Of a stretch of DNA of 64,000 bases, positions 3,359 through 37,670 are shown piece after piece. The DNA is taken from contig OX381721.1 in NCBI GenBank assembly GCA_947462335.1, positions 4,712,001 through 4,776,000 of the forward strand, written 5' to 3'. Within the stretch, counting starts at the first letter, position 1, and each line of letters begins with the position of its first letter. Origin of the DNA: Harmothoe impar (taxonomy: Eukaryota; Annelida; Polychaeta; Phyllodocida; Polynoidae). Both the position numbers and the translations under genes were made by a program. The notes below the pieces were generated by a model that saw only the letters and a program-made list of their open reading frames with translations, searched no databases and had not been told where the DNA came from.

Positions 3359-4239
3359 TGCATATAATGTCTTCCTTTAGTGATGTCTCTCCTTAATGTG
3401 TTAAAGGCTCATCATGATGGTTTGTGAAATGATTTGTCTCTCCGGGATTATCTTCTGGAGGCTACTGTTGAATAACTAATAAGTTTTATGCTCATACATT
3501 ATCAAAGTATAGACACTAAACATAGTCATAAAGTGTGGAGTGAGTGTTATGGGGCAGGTGTAAGGTGATGCATGGAACCGTTATCACACAATGACTGCTT
3601 TAGTACACCTTCAGTTCATGAATTATCCAATGTTTAATTAGAGAATCCATAGAGCATCAGATGTATAGGCCTCCCCCTTGAAGTAGACAAAACTCCATGA
3701 ATCATCAACAGATTTATGATCTGTACAACGTCTTATAGTGTTTTAAGTGGCACAGACCTGTTCCTCAAGTACAGTGTTTACACTGACACAGGCATTATTT
3801 CCACTTCCGGTTTTGCTCTTGGCAATTTCCCTGTTCCATGCCGGCTATGGCATCTGTAAGTGTTGTCACTATCTTAGGCTGACGATAGATTGCAAGCTAA
3901 GAACTAACAAAGCCACCCATATGGAGAATCCCAAATTATCGCTAAAGTGGCCACCCAAGAGAGAGGACCAGGGCCTACCCTATTAGTGCCTTAAGCTAAG
4001 GTGTCAGGGATGTTATGAACCACTAACAATATCAGAATTTGCTGTGGGGGATGTTATGACAGAAACTAGAATCACCTGCTCATGTTGACCATGACATAAT
4101 GCAGGATAGCTCTAGGTTAACCCTTTATGGACGCCAGGATACCTTAATGCATCTTAGCCTTGGTTGTCATGATGCATTTTTTATGAACAAGTTTGACTTT
4201 ATTGACCACACGTTCTTAAGGCTTAACATTTTGCTTTTT
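3359..4239. other. No supported gene
   Basis: I see only degraded fragments of the GAATGCA/CATGATGCA foldback family (for example near 4125-4180) and no splice-supported frame. Confidence 0.3.
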
Positions 4240-4571
4240 TGTCGAACACTCGTATATGAAATAAAGTAATTCTTTTACCCAATAACCAGCAAAACAATTT
4301 TTCTCAATACATGAAGTCGAGTGTATGTAGTATCTATACTTGATCAATAAAGCCGATGACCCACTGTCAGGCTAGCTGTTGTATAGTGGTATCATCATAT
4401 AAACAATCTCATCATAATACATACATGAAATAACTATGAGTCCTTTTGCGGAAAACCTACAGGCAGCAAATTCATTTAGTTTTTAACATCTAAATGATAT
4501 AATATAATATCCCCCTATTTAAAAAGAAAAAAGTTAAGAAAATACATACGGTTTCATGTCTTATATGTGTT

Positions 4572-7395
4572 TTAGTGTACCGGTATAGTGTTCAGCATTT
4601 CTTCTTTAGCTTTACGCTTGAAAGAAATGAAATCTGGGATATTTCTATAGTCCGGAGGTAGAGCATTGAAAACTTGTGCACATGATACACCCACCGAATT
4701 TTCATATGAAGCACTATGTATGATATCATACCTCAACAAAGGTGCTGTACTAGCCCTTGTAATTCTTGTTTTTTTTACTAAAAATTTATCCTTTTTTGAT
4801 CTTTTATAGGCATATAGCTTAGTATGGTATAGGCGTCTCTTCTCTAGTACCGGTAGTTTAGCTTCTTTATGTACTTCTTCAGTAGGTGTCAAGATATGCT
4901 TCGAAAGGCAAGTTTTTAAGCACTTATTTTGGACTCTTTGCAACTCCTCGAGAGTACCAGCTAAGGATCGAGAGTACAATACATCACAATAGTCAATAAC
5001 TGGCAACACATGACTTTTGTAAACCCTCAATCTGGCTTCTTTGGCCATACTCAGCCTTGTCCTATACAACAATATTGACTTGAATCTGAGATTTTTTATC
5101 ATATTTCTCAAGTACATATTAAAATTAAGTTGCTCGTCGAGGATGACTCCCAGATATTTATATGATATCACATTTTTTATCTCCTTTTGATTTACTACAA
5201 TTTTTGGTTTTTCTAGTCTTTTTAATTTAATATTAGAGGCAAATGTCATAATTTTGGTTTTTGATTCATTCATCGTTAATTTATTTATGGATGCCCAGTT
5301 CGAAAATTTGTCTAAAGCAGTCGAAAGCCTATTTTCTAAAGTTGGTATAGTTTTTCCAGACACATATAGGACTGAGTCATCAGCATAAAGTATAGTCTGG
5401 TGGTCATCCTCAACATTTATACAATCATTTATATATAAAAGGAAAAATAAGGGGCCCAAAATTGAGCCTTGAGGCACGCCACATGTTAAAGGAAGGGTAC
5501 TAGATCTGACATTATTAGCTATTGTGCACTGCTGTCTCTGAGATAAATAATTTTCTATTAAAGTTAGAGTTCTATTTCTAATACCATACTGCTCCAATTT
5601 TGAAATTAAAATAATATAATTTACGGAATCAAAGGCTTTTTTTATATCTATAAATGCAGCCATACTTATATTACCTTTATTTCTATTCTCAAGTACATTA
5701 TCTACTAGCTTACTTATGGAATCCACGGTTGACTTAGCTTTTTGATACCCGCCTTGGTGCGGGGACAGAATATTATTTGCATCTAAGTGGTCTGAAATAG
5801 CAGTGTGTAAAAGCCTCTCAAGCACCTTCCCCGGGACAGGTAAAACACTAATTGGTCTCAAATTCGATACGTTCGTGGAGTCACCCCCCTTAGGTAGAGG
5901 GGTCACTGTCGCAATTTTCCAGCTATTTGGTATCATACATGTAGCCACACACAAATTTATAATTTTTATAAAGCGTGAGGGATTATTCAGAACAGCCCTT
6001 TTAAAAATGTTGGTGGGTAACAAATCTAGCGCAGAAGACTTTGAGACATCTAAATTCTTAACACAGTTAATTATGTCTTTGTCCGAGAAAGAGACATCAG
6101 GCATATCCTCTAGGCATCTAGTCCCATTAAATTCAAAATCCTTTTGATGGGCTTGAGCCAATTTTGGACCAATTTCTGCGAAGAAACAATTTATAAAATC
6201 TGCTTTGTTGTCTTGAGAAATTTGGTTACCTAAATCATCAATTAAATTTATAAATTTAGAACCTGATTTGTTTGAGGGTAGAATTTCTTTTAAGGTAGCC
6301 CAAAAGCCCTTTGAATCATTCAACATTGCCTGGCTAAGCTCAGAAATTTTTTTATTTCTAGCTTCGTCAATTTCCAGATTAACTGTGTTTCTCAGGCGTC
6401 TCGCTCTGTACCATGTTAATACACTATTAGAATGTCTTGCTTCCTTCAACAAATTATTTTTATCAGCAATCCATTCTATTAGATAGTTTGTGATCCAGGG
6501 GTCTGGCTTATCTCTTACTTTAAACTCTCTTACTGGTGACTGTACGTCCAACATTCTTTTCAGCATATTTTCATATATTTCCCAACACTCCGATGCATTG
6601 TTACAGTTTTCAAAATAAGTCCAATCACATTCCTCTAGACTAGACAAATACGTCTCCATATTGAAATTTCTGTAAGATCTGCCTTTAAATTTTCTAAACA
6701 CAGGTTTTACATAATTATATTGCCTTATCAGGTGTATAGGTAAATGATCGCTTAAATGGATATTTAAAGGACCACTAGAAACAATTTTCGTACAATTTGT
6801 AAAAATTAAATCTATACATGTATTAGTTCCTGATGTTGTTGTTACACCATGTACTAGTTGGGTCAAATTAAATTGATCCATACACTCATATAAGATATGT
6901 TTCTCATTCGTGGCATTGAGTGCATTTACATTAAAATCCCCTAGAATGAATACGTCAAAAATGCTGAGGTCATCAACCTGTAGTAGCAGAGCTCTTATAG
7001 TGTCACAAAAAGTCTGTATCGAGCCAGAAGGGAGTCTGTACACATTACATATTAGAGCCTTCTTACACTCTCCCTTGACTGAAAGCAGCCATTGGACCTC
7101 TATGTTTTCCATTACATCTGTTTAGATGCTTAAATTTATCTATTGAACAAGAGACTCCCTCGTCTACATGCGCACAAAGGCCACCACCCCTGTAAATACT
7201 GATACGATCTTGTCTAAATAAACTATAGCGTGGAAATGTGTACAAACCATCCTCATCTGTATCGTTTAACCAAGTCTCGGAAAATAATATTATATCTATA
7301 TTTATGTTAGCTAATTCAAGTTTCAAATTTGTCATTTTGTTTCTGATGCTTCTTGCATTTAGATGGACTACAGAGAATCCCTTCTTAAAATTCAC
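4572..7395 (-). pseudogene. LINE ORF2: APE endonuclease plus reverse transcriptase, one frameshift
   Basis: The first segment (7395-7063) has the N-terminal endonuclease motif VVHLNARSIRNK and the metal-binding SETWL motif, but starts after a stop at a GTG codon, with the first ATG about 18 codons in. The second segment, in another frame (7112-4572, 846 residues), continues the endonuclease with GDFNVN (about residue 58) and LSDHLP. It then carries the reverse transcriptase: DIKKAFDSV (motif A), GVPQGSILGP (motif B), and YADD near residue 575 (motif C). A single indel around 7113-7120 explains the frame change. The enzyme nicks target DNA and copies its own RNA by target-primed reverse transcription. 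The frame is otherwise uninterrupted to its stop, so this copy was lost recently. RT motifs fit the CR1/L2 side of the Jockey superfamily; the exact clade needs a tree. Confidence 0.85.
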
Positions 7396-8735
7396 GTCTT
7401 CGCCTTATGAAAATTTTCCCACATTTTTTCAAGTACCATTTCACATACAAGACAAAAAAAGAAAAAGAACAATAAACCCCAAAAAAACCTACCCCCCAAC
7501 AATAGGAGTCGGCACTTGTGGCCTCCCATGTATATGCTCAGATAAATTCTATGAGCTGGCGTGCAGAGTTTGGCATAGCTCCTGTTTAATTTTTCTAAGT
7601 ATCTAAATTCAATTTCCAGAAAACTCATGTCAACCCATGTCAATCCATGTCGATAAATGTCAGAGTCTACATGTTGCCAAAGTTTTATAAAGAGCTTATA
7701 AAAAAAGAAAAAGATCCAATTTTGAATTTGAATTAGATCAGAAAACCAAAAATAATCAATGAACTAGGATACCGGTAAGTAGTCGATGAATTATCAAAAC
7801 CCATATACACATTCCATTCCACATATAAATGAGAATGTCTACAAATATAATCACAATACCATTTGCCCTACACAAGGGTTAAGGAAAAGTAATAGTTATA
7901 TAAAGTTAGGTACCGGTAAGATGCTACGTTCACATCTAGTAAATTAAATCACACATAGAATACCGGTAAATTTAGACAAAATAAACCTCATACATACCCA
8001 TATCCACATCACATTCCCAGTCTACCGGTATATTCAGATTTTAGAATAACCTTTGTATTATACACGTCACAGTCAATAAAGTACTCTTTGCCTAAGGAAT
8101 AAATCCAGGTACAAAGGTAACAATTTAAAGATGCCCTGAGAGGACGATTTACAATTTTACACATTTTCATTTTACACATTTTTTTGAATTTTACACAGTA
8201 GTCGGATATATAAATCTCCGGTAAATTAAGAATAAGTAGACCACATACAGTATTTCATTCGATTTACAATCATACATATCAAATCGTGTCCATGATAATG
8301 GTAGATTCAGACTAAATAGACCACATATAGTATCTATACCAGCTTTTCAATCTCACATGGCTATCTAATATATATTACCGGTAAGCCCAAACAGCGAGGC
8401 AAACCACCTCCAGTATTTGTACTCTCATACACATTTTCATTTTGATTTAGGTTCGAGTCCTGATACATTGCTCAGAGATCTCTTGACAACTTAATTTGTA
8501 CCCGTATACCCCCCCAGCCCCAACTAGCATTACTGGAGTTTGACTTAGCTTCAATATACAAAAGACCAGAGCAAATTTGATAACGATTCAAGAAATCTTG
8601 TCATTTTTCCTTTAAAATTTGTTATAAATATATACATGTTTATATATTTATCTAAATTAAAATAGATGTGGGATTGATTTATAAATTAAAATTTAAAATA
8701 TAAAACAAAAGACATATGAATTTACACTGCTGGAC
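7396..8735 (-). other. LINE inter-ORF spacer rich in TACCGGTA
   Basis: No conserved frame is visible. Five copies of the 8 bp palindrome TACCGGTA lie between 7770 and 8383 (7770, 7911, 7961, 8023, 8376). A B-box-like GGTTCGAGTCC occurs near 8451. A minus-strand open frame at 7643-7392 ends just before the ORF2 frame opens, but its translation is T-run-derived hydrophobic sequence with no domain. Confidence 0.5.
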
Positions 8736-10328
8736 CTATAGATACGAAGCACTAGGCGTTGGGGTTGGCGGAGTACACAAGCCAATTGTCACAGTTTTTC
8801 TTGTGTGCCGAGGAATTTTTCCTTGGTCTTCACCCAGTTCTACTGCTGGCGCTGCAGCGTCGGGTTGGTTCTGATCTTGTTCTTCTAGTTGATCTTCTTG
8901 AAGAGGAGGAGGAGGAGCAGGGGGCGCTGCTGCTGCTGCTGTAGGTGCTTCGTTCAGCTTTGGTTCTGGTAGTCCATCCTCCGCATAGATTTCTCGTCTC
9001 ACCCGTTCTAGCACCCTGCCATGTCCATTCTCATTCCTAAGGTTGTTTTGTTTACATTCTGCTCCTTGACCTAGGTGGAAACCAGAGCCCCACACAGGGT
9101 GATAGCTGGCCTCATACATCCTGTTGCCCTTGGTGTTTTTGAGCAGCTCTCGGAGATCTGGAATGGTGAATTTTGCCTTGTTGCATTGAAAGAGTACTCC
9201 CTCAGCAAGTCGAGCCCATTCAGCATTGGACTCAATCCTTTTTGCCTGCTTCATGATTTTATACAGACAGTCCATGGCTTTGATCACCTCCCAGGCTCTA
9301 GGATCCTCACAGATAGTAGCTTTTCTACACTGGAACGCCTGCTCCACAGATTCGAACCATTCTCCCTCAACTTTAATTTTGCACGGGTAAAGATTAGAGA
9401 AAGGATTATACTCGGATCTAAACAGGATCCCATCTGGTGTGTCGACTGTCGTGGCATTTTTCATTGTTAGCTCAGGGTACGGCATGTTTCTGAGTCGATA
9501 GTGTGGATATGCTTCTTTATTGATGATGATGAATTTCTGTCGCAGTTTGGCTTCCATGCCTTTCGCTCTAGCATAGAAATACATAGTCCTTAGATCAAGG
9601 AATTGCCTGTGTTCTGTGTCGGACAGTTCATCCCCAAATGATACTCCATACCAATAAGGCTTCTTCTTTAAGAATTTGAGAGACTTCATAAGTTTCGACT
9701 TGTTTGTGGGTTTGAGGAAGACGATTTTTACCGCTCGGACTTTTTGTTTACGTTTTCCGCCATCTTGGTTCTGCCTGTACGGTCCTACCCTTTCCACCGA
9801 GTCTAATACATCCTGAGTCCAGTCCAACCCAACGTCTTTAAACAAACGCACCATAATCACAGGTAGGTTCTCGGCCTGATCCTCTGGGCAGCCTTCCATT
9901 ATAACTACCTTACGCTTGTCCTGGTAGTCCATTTTTTCAAATCGATTACCGTGAGCTGTCAGCATTCTAGTCTGGGCCATAGCGGTGTCACTTATCTTTT
10001 TCATAGTGGCTCCAGTCTCTGTCAACGCATTCTGAAAGCCCTCCAGACGTTCATCATGTCCGTCCATTTTTTTAGAAAGACTGGTCATGGTTTGCTGTGT
10101 AGTGCAATTCGTATCATTTAGGCCTTGAAGAGTCTTGTTAATCTCCGTCAGCGTTCCCTGCATGGTGGTATTTGAGGTTTCGACCACTGTCATACGTTGT
10201 GACAGCTGGTTCACTGCCGCTATGACCTCAGCCGGTGACGCGTCCCCTGTCAACATGTCGAGCTGTCCTTGGGGCGGTTGTTTTCTCGTCTGCATATCCA
10301 CTCTGGCTCCTCTCCCTCCTCTCGACAT
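8736..10328 (-). CDS. LINE ORF1 with L1-ORF1-like RNA-binding region and C-terminal NADAR domain
   Basis: The 530-residue frame is intact and starts at ATG 10328. Residues about 35-135 look like a coiled coil. Residues about 139-230 resemble the RRM of L1-type ORF1 proteins (VVIMEGCPED..., then VRAVKIVFLKPTNKSK), followed to about 295 by a C-terminal-domain-like part (FIIINKEAYPHYRL). Residues about 301-448 match the NADAR/YbiA superfamily (DUF1768): FSNLYPCKIKVEGEWF, then ESVEQAFQCRKA with the conserved Glu and Gln, KAKFTIPDLRELL, YEASYHPVWGSGF, and a closing NGHGRVLERVRREI. The tail is Ala/Pro/Gln-rich. NADAR proteins include N-glycosidases and enzymes that remove ADP-ribose from guanine in nucleic acid. 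A role in protecting retrotransposon nucleic acid is my inference. It lies upstream of ORF2 on the same strand, as expected for a LINE ORF1. Confidence 0.8.
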   Translation of the reverse strand: MSRGGRGARVDMQTRKQPPQGQLDMLTGDASPAEVIAAVNQLSQRMTVVETSNTTMQGTLTEINKTLQGLNDTNCTTQQTMTSLSKKMDGHDERLEGFQNALTETGATMKKISDTAMAQTRMLTAHGNRFEKMDYQDKRKVVIMEGCPEDQAENLPVIMVRLFKDVGLDWTQDVLDSVERVGPYRQNQDGGKRKQKVRAVKIVFLKPTNKSKLMKSLKFLKKKPYWYGVSFGDELSDTEHRQFLDLRTMYFYARAKGMEAKLRQKFIIINKEAYPHYRLRNMPYPELTMKNATTVDTPDGILFRSEYNPFSNLYPCKIKVEGEWFESVEQAFQCRKATICEDPRAWEVIKAMDCLYKIMKQAKRIESNAEWARLAEGVLFQCNKAKFTIPDLRELLKNTKGNRMYEASYHPVWGSGFHLGQGAECKQNNLRNENGHGRVLERVRREIYAEDGLPEPKLNEAPTAAAAAPPAPPPPLQEDQLEEQDQNQPDAAAPAVELGEDQGKIPRHTRKTVTIGLCTPPTPTPSASYL

Positions 10329-10475
10329 GGCTATGTTGGTTCTATGTGTTGTTATAATTCAGCGGGCTGAAGAGATTTTGAATTTCGACTTAGTTTTAGT
10401 ATCTGAATGTTCAAATCATTGCGGAGCGCCTTTTCCACCGTCTTAGCCCGTTGCCGCCATGTTTTCCCTATTAAT

Positions 10476-11087: not shown

Positions 11088-12300
11088 ATGGCGGATGCCT
11101 GGTGCTACAGGTGTGGACATGATTATGCACCCCCAAGGGGAGTTGTAAAAAGGAGCCGGCCCATTAAGCCCAGGAGGAGTAAACGCATAGACGGTTCAAA
11201 AAAGACCGTTGAGGAGGTAGCTGCCATCGCCCAGGAGGAGCTGAATGCCAGCCTGGCTACTCTACTGCCAGAGGAAAAGTTTCCCTCGAGGCAGGAATAC
11301 CTCAAATACCTCGATGAACTGGACGTGGCTCACAAGGAGCAGGATCGAGTGGAAAAACTGGAGGAAAAAATCCGGGGACGTTTGACTTTGTGTGTCAAGA
11401 TCAGCGGTCGCCATGAAGAAAAGACCAAGACTCCGAGGACTCTCCTGGACTCCCAAGAGTCAAGCCCTGGAGGAGAGGGTCCCAGGACTTCAACACCGAG
11501 ATTTGATTTACCAGCAGGTAGAGACAGTTATCTTGATCGTTTGACCAAGGTGAAAAAGAAATTTGATCTTAAACGCTATACCAGAGGCCGCGAGCCCAGA
11601 TCACTTTTGTTTGAAGAACTAATGTATGTGTCCCTTAATTGGGCTTGTGTAGGGATTGATGAGGGTACATTTGGTACCCTAGAGAAAATGAAACAGTTCC
11701 TCAGGCATTTGGGTTTTATTTCTTTTAAAGCCTCTAGTGACCTCTATGATAAGCATCAGTTTGCAGGCTATGATGCAGATCTCCGCGAGGAATGTGTACA
11801 TGGGAAGGGTATTGGTGAGTTTTGTTTTGGCAACGACCTTCTATCCAAACAATATTTCGATACAGATAGCCTAAAGAAGGTGAAAGAGCTGCACCGTGAT
11901 AACTCTGCGCGGCCGGGGTAGAGGGCAAGATTCTGGTCGGGAAAGGGGGGATGCCAATCAGGGCTACTTCAATCAGGGTCAGGGTTACCCCCCCAATCAG
12001 GGTAAAGGTTACCAGGGTCAGTACTTTCCCTAAAAAGAATAGTGAAGGTATCAGAATTGATGAGAATGGCAAAATTATAATTTTACAATAGGTTGGGGTG
12101 CGACTCCCGTGCATGTATATTTGGCCATGTCTGCTCTAAGTGTGGCGATCCGACACACAGGTCTACAGGGTGTACCAATGTCAGAATGTATTCAGGATAG
12201 GGCTTACACTCATCTAACAAACGGCTACCAGCAACTGTTCACCCCACTGATGAGTTTGTATGTTTCAAGCCAACCACATGTAGTAGTAGTGACCCAGTGA
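11088..12300 (+). pseudogene. Degenerate gag-like gene of a retrotransposon, with CCHC zinc knuckle
   Basis: An ATG frame of 277 residues (11088-11921) starts MADAWCYRCGHDYAPPRG, with a Cys pair, a basic stretch, a Glu-rich helical part, and a globular-looking C-terminal part from about residue 170. Near 11910 the frame shifts; the next frame continues with an RG-rich and then QGY/NQG-rich tail to a stop at about 12033. After one more stop, 12132-12173 encodes CSKCGDPTHRSTGC, a canonical CX2CX4HX4C knuckle. Capsid-like region, basic or RG linker and knuckle in this order are the layout of a retrotransposon Gag. The family (DIRS-like or Ty3-like) is not resolved, and no protease, RT or integrase follows, so it is a fragment. 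It might instead be a captured host gag-like gene. Confidence 0.5.
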
Positions 12301-32172: not shown

Positions 32173-33180
32173 TTGTCCTATTTTCATTGGGACTGGAACT
32201 TTGTCTTTGGAATAGTTCGTAGATTTGATAACCCCCAACTCAATGACCGCATTGACAAGGTCAACGTCTTCTTGGAGTCACTGCAGTCCGAGACGACTTG
32301 CTATGTGGACCACAACCCCACATTCAAGTATCTCCCCAGCGCCCTACAGAAGGACAAGCTACATCTACGCGAATCAGGACTGAAGCAGATAGCAGCCAAC
32401 CTAAAACTAGTGATTGCTGGGGAGAAACAGGGGGCACCGGTAACACCAACCCCAACATGTACCGACCCTAGTATGAAAACTCCTGGAGGGAATCAGCACC
32501 CTGATACAGTAACAGACAGCTGGTCGGTCCCCAGGCAGCAGAGGAAAAAGCAACAGCAGAAGGAACAGCAAGGTGCACAGTCCACGCATAGGCAGCAGAG
32601 GACTAACGACTGGGGACAGGTCCCAGTGCAGAATAAGTTCTCCAAGCTAGACAGCAGAGAGAATCACCCAAGTACAGATGCTGTATCCGAAGGGCCCCCA
32701 AAAATGATGCGGAACAAGGGAAAGAAGACCAAGCACAACCGCAGGTCCTCCCCACAACCACCCAAGGACCATGACATGCGCTCCAAAAGTCAGAGTAATC
32801 CTGAACTACATACCTTGATTGAAGCAACTCTTCGATGCCTGCAGGAAACGGGTACCAACTCAAAGATACCTGCACAAGGTCAAGCCGAGCCTCATGGCAA
32901 CTCCGCATACCAAGATCACCAGGCAGGTATGGCTAGATATGCACAGGCTGTACCATATGTACCGCAGCAAAGCTATAGTCATCACCCATGCCACCAAATG
33001 CCACACAGTTTTGCTCAAATGCCACACAGTTTTGCTCAAGTGCCAACAAGCACCCCAATGCAATCTGGAATGGTTTATAATGTAGGGCTCCAACCACACC
33101 ACCCCAGCTGGCAGTCGACGGTGCCCAGAGCATGGGATCAGAGTCCATGGGGGCAAGTTCCGATGATGTTATACCGTTAA
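32173..33180 (+). CDS. LINE ORF1, 5'-truncated: end of an SGNH-type esterase domain plus Gln/Pro-rich tail
   Basis: The frame is 335 residues, but the first about 14 probably belong to flanking sequence. What follows, from RFDNPQLNDR to DKLHLRESGLKQIAANLKLV, resembles the C-terminal part of the esterase (SGNH hydrolase-like) domain found in ORF1 of several CR1/L2-type LINEs, including a D-x-x-H element (DKLH). The catalytic serine block is missing, as expected if the copy was 5'-truncated during insertion. The rest is rich in Gln, Pro, Lys and His, with a short duplication of CHTVLLK-like coding in another frame (in this frame, PHSFAQ twice), and is probably RNA-binding or disordered. The last 49 bases overlap the start of ORF2 in another frame. 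Confidence 0.6.
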   Translation: MSYFHWDWNFVFGIVRRFDNPQLNDRIDKVNVFLESLQSETTCYVDHNPTFKYLPSALQKDKLHLRESGLKQIAANLKLVIAGEKQGAPVTPTPTCTDPSMKTPGGNQHPDTVTDSWSVPRQQRKKQQQKEQQGAQSTHRQQRTNDWGQVPVQNKFSKLDSRENHPSTDAVSEGPPKMMRNKGKKTKHNRRSSPQPPKDHDMRSKSQSNPELHTLIEATLRCLQETGTNSKIPAQGQAEPHGNSAYQDHQAGMARYAQAVPYVPQQSYSHHPCHQMPHSFAQMPHSFAQVPTSTPMQSGMVYNVGLQPHHPSWQSTVPRAWDQSPWGQVPMMLYR

Positions 33181-35145
33181 CATCTCCCCATGGACATAGT
33201 ACTTGTCCTAAAACTTTCAATGCAGAAGACTTCAAAAGAGTGCCCAAACTAGGAGAAGACCTGCCTACATCTGGCGAGTCACTCCCAATGCCCACAGCAT
33301 ACACCAAAAACCAGGCTCAAGTCAAAAGCCTGCGAATCTTGGGGTTGAACGTATGTGGCCTTGTCTCAAAGCTGAATTACTCAATATTGGAGGACTATAT
33401 CTATGATAACTTCGATATTATTAGCCTATCAGAGACAAAACTGGATGCTCTTGATGAAGCGAACATAAAAGTGGAAGGCTTTACTCCATTTTACCACCAC
33501 AGACAAAAGTTCTCAAGGAAATCAGGAGGCATAGCCACATTCATAAAAAGTGACTTAACAAAATATGTGAAAGCTCTTACTCCTAGTGAAAACGAGTATG
33601 TGCAGTGGTTGCAATTAGATCCCCTAATCTTAGGTTACAACCTGATACTGGGTACAGTGTATATCCCTCCATGTGATTCACCCTATAGTACAGGTAACGA
33701 GTTTGAAAACATACAGACTGACCTAATCCATATGCAAAGCCTCTACCCAGACAGTCAGATCTGCCTTATAGGGGACTTTAATGCAAGGACCGGGAATAAA
33801 CAAGACTTCATAGAGTCATGTGAGCATGTGGCATATGCAACGGGTTTAGAAGATGTGGCAGATGAACTTTTCTTAGACGAGTCTACGATAAGAAAACTTG
33901 GTATAGAAGTGAATAGGGTGTATACTGACAAGAAGTTGGACTCAAATGGGAAGAAACTAATTGAACTCTGTATAAGTGCAGGCATCCTAATTGCTAATGG
34001 CAGATTTGGGAAAAAGTCTTCTGAATTCACGTGTAAAGGGACCAGCATTATAGATTATGCCATTGCATCTGCTTCACTGTTTCCCTTAATTAATAGTTTT
34101 CATGTTGACACATTTGATTCCTGCCTGTCTGATGTACATTCGCCTATCATATTGGAATTGTCCACTACAGCTGTATCTACCGAGGTGATTGATAATCAGT
34201 CTAATCTGGAACTCTCTGACATGCAGGTACCACTTACCAGAGTTCATTGGGATAACGGTAAGACATCTAAATTTAAAGAGGCCTTTAACTCCTGTGATAT
34301 TGAGAAGATTGAAACACTAATCACCAATGCTCGGGGCCGTGGTACTGGGGTAGGACAAAAGGACATAGACCATATATCAAATTTGTTCACAGAGGTATAT
34401 ACTGAATGTGGTAAACATGCTGGTGTTATTAAGCCTGTGCACCGCAATGCCAGGGAAGGCACAAATAACTTCAGAAAACGTATCACCCCTAGAAAACCTT
34501 GGTTCAGCGACAGGTGTGAACATGCTCGGAAAGAGGTATTCAGTGCTAAGAACAGATTTGCGAGAAGTCAGAGTGAGTCAGACAAGTTGCTATTAAAAAT
34601 GTCCAGTAAGGCATATAAGGCTACCATAAAGTCAGCGTTGCTGGACTATAACAAGAAACTAAATGAGAATTTACGTAACTTAAAAAGTACTAATCCTAAA
34701 GACTACTGGAAAATCTTGAACAATGCACACGGGACCACAAGTAAAACTGGCCAGATTTCCCTGGACTCCTTCAGGTCCCATTTTGAAAATCTAAATACTG
34801 TTCCGAACATGTCCCCTGAGCATGTATGCACTGACCAAGGGAATCTATGCCCCGACCAGGGTACTCCAACACGTGATACCAGTGACCTGCCTTTTAACCA
34901 ACCAATAACAGTCACTGAAATTGAGGAAGTGGTTAAAAAGCTGAAAAATGGCAAGGCTGGAGGAAACGACTCCATCGTCAATGAGTTCATAAAAAACAGT
35001 CCTTCTGACCTCCTAGCTATCATCAGTGCATACTTTAACCTTGTCCTAGATACAGGTATTGTCCCAGAATCCTGGTCAGTTGGTGTTATAGTACCAATAT
35101 ATAAAAATAAAGGTGATATTAATAGCCCAGACAATTATAGAGGTT
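33132..35145 (+). pseudogene. LINE ORF2, piece 1: APE endonuclease and start of RT
   Basis: From residue about 73 the endonuclease is recognisable: LGLNVCGLVSKL, ISLSETKLD, GTVYIPP, LIGDFNARTG and LSDVHSPI carry the conserved Asn, Glu, Tyr, Asp/Asn and Asp/His residues in order. The RT N-terminal part begins near EIEEVVKKLKNGKAGGND and GVIVPIYKNKGD. The frame leaves LINE sequence after PDNYRG, where an inserted element begins. The start ATG lies inside ORF1, an arrangement compatible with translational coupling. Confidence 0.8.
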
Positions 35146-35230
35146 TATTATACGATATGGGCTTACACCGTGCTTTTTAGGTGATATTCCCGTTCTGATA
35201 TTCCTGCATAGCGCACACTTGGGGAGGTGA

Positions 35231-35313
35231 AATCGTTCTGATATTCTGGATATCAGAACGATTCTGAATTCCCCATTCAGAATCGTTCTGATATCCAGAA
35301 TATCAGAACGATT
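35231..35313. repeat. Perfect inverted repeat, 39 bp arms, 5 bp spacer
   Basis: Arm 1 (35231-35269) and arm 2 (35275-35313) are exact reverse complements around TCCCC. Each arm is itself a near-palindrome built from ATCGTTCTGATAT and ATATCAGAACGAT, so the DNA can form either one large or two small hairpins. Confidence 0.9.
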
Positions 35314-35340
35314 CTGAATGGGAATCGTCAGCCATAAAAT

Positions 35341-35415
35341 CCGAGGTTTCATGGAGACTCGAACACGCTACATCAAGACTTAGAGTCCGACGTGCTAACC
35401 ACCACGCCGTGGAGG
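35341..35415 (-). repeat. tRNA-like sequence (probable SINE head or tRNA pseudogene)
   Basis: On the minus strand GTGGTTAGCACGTCGG resembles an A box/D arm, and GTGTTCGAGTCTCC about 35 bases later resembles a B box/T arm. The acceptor and T stems do not pair well, so a functional tRNA is unlikely. Confidence 0.35.
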
Positions 35416-35649
35416 CGCTGGTAGAGGTAGGTGGCGAAACAAGGAGTCTACAGGCGGATTTTTAGCCCTGTAGGACCATTATTTACCGAGTTACAGAAGA
35501 AAAGGCATTTTTTGGTATAATTTCTTTGAAAATCAATATTCTTTTCTAATTTCTTTTTTACTATAAAGGTAGAAGTTGGACTTTACTTAGCCTTTCGTTA
35601 AAATAATTCTAGGGGCTTTTTTTCACATGTATATAGGCATTTTGAAAAT

Positions 35650-35731
35650 GGTTCGTTTCCACCCAGGATCGATCCGGGGACCCTTGGTGTATTGGGCTCA
35701 CACGCTGGCACCCATGCCTATCCGGCTGTGG
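35650..35731 (-). repeat. Second tRNA-like sequence
   Basis: On the minus strand GGATCGATCCTGGGTGG resembles a B box/T arm, and the upstream GGCATGGGTGCCAGCG could be a D-arm relic. Same orientation as the tRNA-like piece 250 bases away. Evidence is limited to box similarity. Confidence 0.25.
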
Positions 35732-35857
35732 TGAGTTTGGAGGGAAACGCTGCCTATATTGAAGTATAGAGGGGAGCGGTTATTAACCAAAACGGCAGGT
35801 GGCGACGCGGGAGTACAGTCGTATTCTTGGGGGTCTGGATGGGGGGTCCCGATTTCC

Positions 35858-36025
35858 TATGTCGATTTTAAGAAATGACCATGTCGCCCTGTCGATTTTA
35901 AGAAATGGCCATGTCACCCTGTCGATTTTAAGAAATGGCCATGTCCCATGTCACTCTCTCTGATTTTCCTCATGTCGCATGTCACTAGGCCCCAACACGG
36001 CCATGTCGCCGTGTCGATTTTAGTG
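35858..36025. repeat. Short tandem array, CATGTCGCCCTGTCGATTTT type
   Basis: The words CATGTCGCC(C/G)TGTCGATTTTA and AAGAAATGGC repeat about four times at roughly 34-base spacing, the last unit after a CATGTCACT variant. Confidence 0.7.
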
Positions 36026-36244
36026 GTCCACACCCATATTCTTTAGGCTGGCGAAAGCAGCGTAACAAAATAATAACCGATCCCCGCGCCTAGCTCTTTC
36101 TTCCTCACCTCCCCTACTGAAGAGTTCCACAACATGGCGCTACTGGTGTACGAGTGATATTCAGTCAATAATCCTTCAAAATGGCGAAATTAGGACGTTT
36201 TAAAGGTAATTAAAGACATATGAATCGAAATATCGTATAATAAA

Positions 36245-36371
36245 CCTAATAATATATGAATATGACTGCACTCGGGCTGTGTATAGATGAATAACGACCT
36301 CGGTGCTACGCACCTCGGGTCGTTATTCATCAATACACAACCCTTGTGCTTCATATTCATATATTATTGGT
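36245..36371. mobile_element. 127 bp foldback MITE next to the LINE junction
   Basis: Arms of about 54 bases, starting CCTAATAATATATGAATATG at the left and its near-exact inverse at the right, flank a loop that itself contains GGTGCTACGCACC. TAA stands on both outer sides (left TAA-ACC, right GGT-TAA), suggesting a 3 bp TAA target duplication of the PIF/Harbinger type. It overlaps by a few bases the end of the 1.1 kb insertion, so the two may be one composite. Confidence 0.7.
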
Positions 36372-36375
36372 TAAA

Positions 36376-37490
36376 TAACCCTACTTAGCTGTATGGGGAA
36401 ATTGTTTACAATGATATTAAACATACGGCTAGGTACCTATTTAGAATATAACAATATAATGGGAGAAGAACAAGCAGGATTTAGGGAAGGTTATTCCACA
36501 CTTGATCATATTTTTAACCTACACTGTATTATTGAACTATTCCTGTCACAGAAAGAGAGACTATACTGTGCCTTTGTAGACTATAAAAAGGCATTTGACA
36601 CTGTGGATAGGTCCTCATTGTGGGTAAAACTACTCAAGTCTAATATCGATGGTAAAGTGTTGAATGTTATAAAAAGTATGTATCAGACAGCAAAGTCTTG
36701 TGTACGTGTTGACACTTGCCTGTCAGAATATTTTAGTTGCAACGTAGGGGTGAGGCAAGGTGAGAACCTCTCACCACTGCTTTTTGCCATATACTTGAAT
36801 GACCTAGAAAGTCATTTCGAAAACCATTGTGAAGGTGTTAGCTGGCTGGGCACTGACCCTGAATCTCAAGTACTTCTAAAGCTGTATATCTTACTGTATG
36901 CTGATGATACAATCCTACTTAGCGAGTCTTCTGAAGACCTACAGAACATGCTACATGTTTTGGAGCAGTACTGCCATGACTGGAAGCTTACTGTAAATAC
37001 CTCGAAAACAAAGGTAGTAATATTCTCACGTGGCAAGGTAAAGAAGCTACCAAAGTTACTGTACCAGGGCGAACCACTGGAAGTGCAACACAATTATACA
37101 TATCTGGGAATAGAGTTCAATTATAATGGTAAGTTTACCCAAGCCATAAGAAAACAGGTCACACAAGCGAAAAGAGCCCTGATTAGCTTATTGTCAAAGG
37201 CTCGAAAACTACAACTCCCAGTCGATATCCAATGCCATCTTTTTGATGCATGTATTGTACCAATATTACTATACGGTTGCGAGGTATGGGGTTTTTCAGA
37301 CTTGCGTGAAATTGAAAGAGTCCAGAGCTATTTCTGTAAATTTGTCCTTAAGCTGAATGCACGCACAGCAAATTGCATGGCATTGGGAGAACTGGGACGA
37401 CTTAAGTTAAGCTGTATTGTCAAACAAAGGATGATCAGTTTCTGGCATAGAATTGTTGCTGGGAAAACAAGTAAAATATCCCACATCATA
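36376..37490 (+). pseudogene. LINE ORF2, piece 2: central reverse transcriptase
   Basis: LINE sequence resumes at ITLLSCMGKL, which directly continues PDNYRG of piece 1. Motif A is FVDYKKAFDTV, motif B is GVRQGENLSPLLFAIYLND, and motif C is YADD at 36898-36909. The thumb and connection region continue to KTSKISHII, where a second insertion begins and places TGA in frame. The codons are otherwise intact, so both insertions hit a recently active or young copy. Confidence 0.85.
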
Positions 37491-37670
37491 TGACTCAGTC
37501 TCACGAACGTGATGCAACTCAGGTAGCAAGGGAGCAGAACAGTAACTTTGGCATATGGTCAATTCCTTCTTTATTAGTATACTGCAGGTGTTGGTGGACA
37601 CTACTGGATGAGTAGTTTTATTTAAATATGTATGCAGTAACCATGGTAACTGTTCAAAATAGACTCATTT

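Follow-up and report, generated by a model that had tools for sequence, protein, structure and literature searches.

Must a retrotransposon clear its own nucleic acid of ADP-ribose, and is it the host that attaches this mark? The question is raised by a LINE of the polychaete Harmothoe impar, found in a 64,000-nucleotide stretch of contig OX381721.1 (the window), whose first open reading frame (ORF1) carries a NADAR domain. N2-guanine-linked ADP-ribose is hydrolyzed by NADARs, as described in PMC11543638 and PMC11125620, and the latter calls the role of NADAR in animals an open question.

The LINE lies on the minus strand, and its layout in window coordinates, with the pocket residues numbered along ORF1, is as follows:

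4176..10469, minus strand: full-length LINE copy, ~6.3 kb, delimited by blastn against other copies in the genome
10329..10469, minus strand: 5′ UTR, between the common 5′ end and the ORF1 ATG
8736..10328, minus strand: ORF1 (530 aa), an uninterrupted 530-codon frame running from 10328 to 8736
9909..10235, minus strand: coiled coil, residues 32–140, a single long helix in the predicted model
9624..9908, minus strand: L1-type RRM, residues 141–235
9444..9623, minus strand: probable L1-type C-terminal RNA-binding domain (CTD), residues 236–295, from its position behind the RRM and Foldseek
8988..9413, minus strand: NADAR domain, residues 306–447, by Pfam and structural match
9342..9344, minus strand: Glu329, equivalent to E43 of the P. 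nicotianae NADAR (E88 of E. coli C7) by alignment to 8bau; Glu in 20 of 20 ORF1s
9321..9323, minus strand: Lys336, equivalent to K50 (K95) by alignment to 8bau; Lys in 15, Arg in 4, and Gln in 1 of 20 ORF1s
9111..9113, minus strand: Glu406, equivalent to E125, the YbiA-type Glu of the last strand, by alignment to 8bau; Glu in 20 of 20 ORF1s
8739..8972, minus strand: low-complexity tail, residues 453–530, with pLDDT below 50 from residue 459 onward
7405..8735, minus strand: ORF1–ORF2 spacer of 1331 nt, longest sense frame 119 aa
7063..7404, minus strand: start of the ORF2 endonuclease, in one frame
4572..7121, minus strand: remaining ORF2 endonuclease and reverse transcriptase, in the other frame (RVT_1 121.3 bits, Exo_endo_phos_2 40.5 bits)

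A search of the window's own assembly (1.51 Gb, 736 contigs) with ORF1 returned at least 82 matches, with identities from 100 down to 42%, and 20 of the 82 were fetched at 9.9 kb, picked to cover that range. The expected LINE arrangement, with endonuclease and reverse transcriptase in an ORF2 downstream of ORF1, was found in 19 of these 20 copies, L014 having no ORF2 in its stretch; four of the ORF2s were searched with Pfam. Among the eight copies compared with the window LINE by blastn, the 5′ end falls at 10467–10469 in seven (10478 in L009) and the 3′ end at 4175–4177 in five (4165 in L015, 4968 in L016, and 8054 in L014). In window-group copies the 3′ end is A-rich and AATAAA is present as a signal, 5′-truncated copies occur among the matches, and a target-site check found shared words of 5–8 bases in five of seven copies, most clearly in L015, and none in the other two. 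Copies L009 and L011 are 98.9 and 98.8% identical to the window LINE over its full length (blastn). ORF2 is frameshifted in the window copy, as its two frames indicate, but uninterrupted in several others, including close ones; many of these intact frames are 943–951 residues long, and some pairs are 100% identical (rounded figures). We infer that the window LINE family is young and recently active. The spacer measured 723–1733 nt in 14 window-group copies, and these stretches of 0.7–1.7 kb are non-coding and AT-rich, with repeated segments and length changes. Homology among the ORF2s begins abruptly, and a stop codon immediately precedes that point in L009 and in the copy of the window. A splice acceptor at this sharp start was considered and dropped, as the upstream AG is not common to the 15 copies inspected.

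The domain content of ORF1 largely agrees with what the earlier note had read from the sequence. Its claim of a 530-residue LINE ORF1 with an intact-looking NADAR is borne out by the profile match (PF08719, 68 bits against a curated cut-off of 35.1), by the structural match, and by the ORF2 that follows. The predicted model of ORF1 matches both NADAR and human L1 ORF1p structures (Foldseek, VIA), so the NADAR fold is present, and the Foldseek alignments to L1 ORF1p extend over 178–229 columns. The coiled coil and L1-like RNA-binding region that the note had placed before the NADAR stand in part: the coiled coil and the RRM are recovered in the model, while the CTD is only probable, being less certain because the VIA alignments to L1 ORF1p end at residue 233–234. 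At the other end, the VIA match of the coiled coil to L1 ORF1p trimer structures begins at residue 94 or 95. The predicted order of coiled coil and then L1-type RRM would make this a Type II ORF1p on structural evidence; no L1 ORF1 Pfam model appeared among the families matched at E ≤ 0.001 by the members of alignment A2, which holds 16 ORF1s of the genome, namely that of the window plus 15 fetched ones (the other five, near-duplicates, being omitted), and three ‘ena’ proteins. ORF1 is 502–503 aa long in the four closest copies read, and that of the window runs 27 residues beyond their stop. A 277-aa open frame, to which no Pfam family matched at E ≤ 0.01, adjoins the 5′ end of the LINE (window 11088–11921, plus strand).

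Copies of the ORF1 keep the domain. NADAR was found in all 19 ORF1s of alignment A2 (Pfam, E ≤ 0.001), which, together with the number of ORF1 matches in the assembly, speaks against the possibility raised in the earlier note that the domain is missing from the other copies. Selection was estimated as dN/dS by the Nei–Gojobori method on 20 ORF1s, L026 being omitted for its short frame, and 14 pairs were computed. In six informative pairs (WIN-L013, L009-L013, L009-L015, L015-L016, L017-L019, and L018-L019, where WIN is the window copy), the NADAR part gave 0.018–0.045, some of these pairs being near saturation because dS reaches 1.8; seven other pairs have no NADAR value because dS is saturated. 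The pair WIN-L009 gave 0.128, from four synonymous and two nonsynonymous differences, too few changes to judge. In the same six pairs, dN/dS was 0.021–0.036 for the RRM–CTD part (five values) and 0.29–0.52 for the tail, or 0.20–0.52 for the tail across the 10 pairs with a value. The comparison across copies that the note had suggested thus returns purifying selection: the NADAR part of ORF1 is strongly constrained, comparably to the RNA-binding part, and the tail is relaxed. Selection of this kind works on the lineage of active copies. Approached from ORF2, 51 matches in the genome divide into 32 with a NADAR-ORF1 match listed no more than 6 kb upstream and 19 without one. Four of the 19 were inspected, with candidates ranked by likeness: L033 and L034 hold the NADAR end of a 5′-truncated ORF1, no ORF1 was seen within 4.2 kb in L031 and L032, and a sister element with a NADAR-free ORF1 was not found among these four.

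The layout also recurs beyond the window group. A NADAR profile search of the genome listed 150 matches of 3484 first-look candidates, all above the cut-off and stop-free; the window family, at 68 bits, falls under the lowest listed match (88.4 bits). The four strongest matches (150–178 bits, frames of 183–268 residues) look like stand-alone genes, one of which was read (L040), and three of the four are grouped in 27 kb of the contig that also carries the window (C21:30057793-30084570). From the 146 loci that do not look host-like, five (L035–L039) were sampled by frame length (431–1331). All five encode long proteins in which NADAR stands far from the N-terminus, with coiled-coil and RRM-like stretches ahead of it, as seen by eye. 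A reverse transcriptase ORF lies downstream of ORF1 in L035, L036, L037, and L038, and none was reached within 4 kb after L039. Against four window-group ORF2s, the ORF2s of L035–L038 show 28–32% identity; the NADARs of the five loci show 24–34% to that of the window. In a 16-row tree, the window group forms one clade (99/97); one and several NADAR captures are not separable because the deep branches are long and have weak support (40/41) where they join the host-like gene and the other LINEs.

Could a functionless fragment of a NADAR gene simply have been inserted by chance into one ORF1 copy? We give this next to no weight. The architecture is present across copies and families, and the NADAR in it is under purifying selection with its core catalytic residues. 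A chance insertion is refuted by the many copies with the domain (at least 82 ORF1 matches, and NADAR in every aligned ORF1), by the low dN/dS in the six pairs, and by a like layout in families whose ORF2s are only ~30% identical.

The pocket was compared by sequence alignment to the solved P. nicotianae NADAR (8bau), whose chain index equals the paper number plus 2 by our own count. DarT1-linked, E. coli, phage, and P. nicotianae NADARs, as described in PMC11543638 and PMC11125620 and seen in 8bau, have the fold and the E43, K50, E125, and W133 equivalents in common with the window domain, which differs from them in being fused to an ORF1p and in missing the equivalents of D130, R93, K75, and Y84. 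W371 aligns to W89 and W413 to W133, both invariant in 20 of 20 ORF1s, and R79 of the solved NADAR aligns to K363 (Lys in 19 and Arg in 1 of 20). Glu406, constant in 20 of 20, is the last-strand Glu that defines the YbiA subfamily in place of Asp or His (PMC11543638, PMC11125620), although it sits in a poorly modelled stretch of the predicted structure. Among the deviating sequences, copy L020 has Gln in place of the catalytic Lys, and in L037 Tyr replaces Trp. PMC11543638 names E88 and K95 as the largely conserved NADAR residues, by which D130 is not a defining one. The D130 position is a gap in the HMMER alignment of the window group and His or Asn in that by MAFFT, the residue at or beside it being His in 18 and Asn in 2 of 20 ORF1s; Asp stands there in L035, L037, L038, and L039, and His in L036. 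In the account of SNA-3, the residues mutated as critical, after YbiA, include an Asp that precedes the Trp by three positions, and we read it as the same residue as D130. R93 is replaced by Ala, K75 is replaced by Met, and Y84 is lost; with no counterpart for these three residues, the domain may recognize its ligand differently. The loss of pocket residues that the note had named as a possible objection is therefore partial in the alignment: the E43, K50 (as Lys or Arg), W89, E125, and W133 equivalents are kept, and those of D130, R93, K75, and Y84 are not. Judged by sequence, the window-group NADAR is likely a hydrolase with altered ligand recognition.

The fusion itself is known. The earlier note was unaware of a report, but a passage in a 2025 paper (PMC12477816) states that the ORF1s of several Tx1 LINEs of Crassostrea gigas, taken from Repbase, appear to have NADAR, and its authors propose that the domain may help to process the RNA intermediate. 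These LINEs are like that of the window in holding a NADAR domain inside ORF1, and the passage on them does not treat selection, pocket residues, or the genome-wide extent of the LINE version. A further report of NADAR in a LINE ORF1 was not found in the literature covered, which had few subscription papers and no bioRxiv preprints. What is new here is a different-looking LINE group, the genome-wide scale, and the evidence of selection. PMC12477816 names the Tx1 clade for the oyster elements. The reverse transcriptase of the window, in contrast, carries the motif GVPQGSILGP where human L1 has GTRQGCPLSP. By motif, this would fit the Jockey/CR1/L2 side rather than L1/Tx1; matches to PDB sequences (L1 1.2e-15, R2 1.8e-10) were set aside as not diagnostic of the clade. 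If the motif placement holds, NADAR-bearing ORF1s occur in two LINE superfamilies, and a one-passage remark on oyster Tx1 elements is extended to a LINE group whose reverse transcriptase motif differs and, within a single genome, to several families.

Type II ORF1s are found in L1, CR1, L2, and R1 elements according to PMC4120745, where reticulate evolution and horizontal acquisition of ORF1s among LINEs are proposed. The coiled coil, RRM, and CTD of these L1-type proteins (PMC4120745; PDB 2yko, 2w7a) resemble residues 1–295 of the window ORF1p, the CTD less certainly, to which the window protein adds NADAR; the additions listed for Type II in PMC4120745 are PHD and esterase domains, not NADAR. 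A precedent for an enzyme domain in a LINE ORF1p is the SGNH esterase of ZfL2-1 (PMC3905857), although that enzyme is another one, and the SGNH-esterase ORF1ps are described there as lacking structural RNA-binding domains. Gypsy elements of Ectocarpus (PMC12477816) are also NADAR-bearing retroelements, but LTR ones with the NADAR at the N-terminus of Pol. Similarly, NADAR is reported in RNA viruses of nematodes, crustaceans, insects, annelids, and bivalves (PMC9503650), RNA-borne invertebrate elements with the domain in a replication protein, but within a virus polyprotein. The full ORF1, compared with 5.8 billion proteins, had three matches, and the identical three with a profile (7993 candidates scored each). 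No close stand-alone relative of the NADAR part was found at E ≤ 0.001 among 14 candidates, in a search that requires shared exact words, and among viral contigs 83 stretches fitted the pattern, with none confirmed.

What, then, might the domain do? In the reading we favor, the L1-type coiled coil and RNA-binding module of ORF1p would coat the LINE RNA, with NADAR fused behind as an active hydrolase held on the RNP. ADP-ribose would be set on guanines of the LINE RNA, cDNA, or nicked target by host ADP-ribosyltransferases or RNA repair, and NADAR would strip it, leaving reverse transcription unblocked and the RNA or cDNA readable. We put the probability that the ORF1p NADAR is an RNP-borne hydrolase removing ADP-ribose from guanine in LINE RNA, cDNA, or target at roughly 40%. 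Retention of E329, W371, E406, and W413 in 20 of 20 ORF1s and of Lys or Arg at 336 in 19 of 20, together with the low NADAR dN/dS, argues for such an activity, and Glu, Lys, and Glu are kept in all five further loci. An Arg at the Lys position is compatible with hydrolysis: the E. coli C7 NADAR with that Lys changed to Arg kept hydrolysis in vitro, although it lost rescue of toxicity (PMC11543638). Along the same lines, guanine-N2 ADP-ribosylating activity is contained in six edible clams (PMC11209040), and annelids and bivalves have the NADAR-bearing RNA viruses mentioned above; that NADARs erase the clam-type mark is assumed here, as it is in the structure paper (PMC11543638). The host genome has 52 matches to PARP catalytic domains (PF00644). 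Against this reading stand the missing D130 equivalent in the window group and the missing counterparts of R93, K75, and Y84, the poorly modelled surroundings of E406, and the substitutions in L020 and L037. A search for the Scabin-like guanine ADP-ribosyltransferase family (PF22596) also gave no genome match, an uninformative result in that the control matched nowhere. The role proposed in the earlier note, stripping of ADP-ribose against a host block, is plausible but undemonstrated.

The altered D130 and recognition residues, and the fusion to an RNA-binding module, would suit a non-catalytic NADAR that serves RNP assembly or localization by binding a protein partner or by recognizing ADP-ribose or features derived from NAD or found at RNA ends. 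Nematode SNA-3, described as acting in RNA processing with the cap-binding complex, offers a parallel, the first of its three NADARs being without the conserved critical residues. We nevertheless regard a binding module as less probable than the hydrolase: the Glu pair is fixed and Lys or Arg nearly always present in window-group NADARs down to 42% identity, the same Glu, Lys, and Glu recur in five further families at 24–34% identity, and there would be little reason for a module that only binds to retain both Glu. Less probable again is a hydrolase that is active near the RNP not on base-linked ADP-ribose but on a by-product of RNA repair or on a small derivative of ADP-ribose or NAD. A pocket lacking R93, K75, and Y84 equivalents would agree with this, and the YbiA NADAR is an N-glycosidase on riboflavin intermediates, while soluble ADP-ribose derivatives have been proposed for the viral domains (PMC9503650); the authors of PMC9503650, however, also argue that Macro and NADAR domains of eukaryotic RNA viruses primarily target macromolecular ADP-ribosylation. 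Fusion to an RNA-coating protein, too, suggests a bound substrate rather than a diffusing one. The PARP matches could finally indicate that NADAR lets ORF1p counter a protein-directed restriction by the PARP family, and not a modification of nucleic acid. ZAP reportedly inhibits LINE retrotransposition (PMC4423928). In the literature covered, however, NADAR activity is described on guanine-linked ADP-ribose and riboflavin intermediates and not on protein, and ZAP, which is PARP13, is catalytically inactive, which makes this account improbable.

Taking the guanine-directed hydrolase a step further, the LINE group, with ORF2s down to 28% identical, might counter a host defense by keeping on its RNP an enzyme that removes ADP-ribose from nucleic acid, to which some families would add a separate SGNH-like protein; we consider this wider proposal doubtful. 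If it were true, animals would have an unrecognized anti-retrotransposon defense in which guanines of foreign RNA or cDNA are ADP-ribosylated, and NADAR would be the LINEs' escape from it. With a NADAR that is strongly selected across the many copies of a young element and tied to an RNA-coating protein, the role of the domain in animals becomes testable.

Several observations bear on the genomic surroundings. Some PARP matches lie in open frames of 1699–3279 residues, with clusters on C3 and C12. The assembly holds two very different mitochondrial COX1 genes, on contigs C736 and C466. The gene on C736 reads with the invertebrate code and by eye looks molluscan, and that on C466 resembles, also by eye, one of a trematode flatworm; parasite DNA in the assembly is thereby suggested, and the window's contig, 65 Mb long, is taken as host DNA. 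The window has a second LINE (32173-37493, plus strand), with endonuclease and reverse transcriptase in separate frames and another ORF upstream. This element had no NADAR match, and its upstream ORF had no Pfam match at E ≤ 0.01.

One or two additional ORFs stand behind ORF1 in L035, L037, and L039. The extra ORFs located are:

L035:4504-5382, plus strand: extra ORF
L037:305-1099, minus strand: extra ORF
L042:211-1023, plus strand: extra ORF
L042:1077-1775, plus strand: extra ORF

They are 15–22% identical to the first of them. Pfam matched neither of the two tested at E ≤ 0.001, and the middle ORFs had no match to PDB sequences at E ≤ 1. A relic of such a middle ORF in the window-group spacers was rejected, the sole match being weak (23 residues, L017, E 0.026). 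A low-confidence model of a middle ORF (mean pLDDT 45.9) gave 17 Foldseek matches at E ≤ 0.001, and in 12 cases the title names an esterase, a lipase, or a hydrolase, which may mean little at that confidence; some NADAR LINE families are possibly three-ORF LINEs with an SGNH-like protein.
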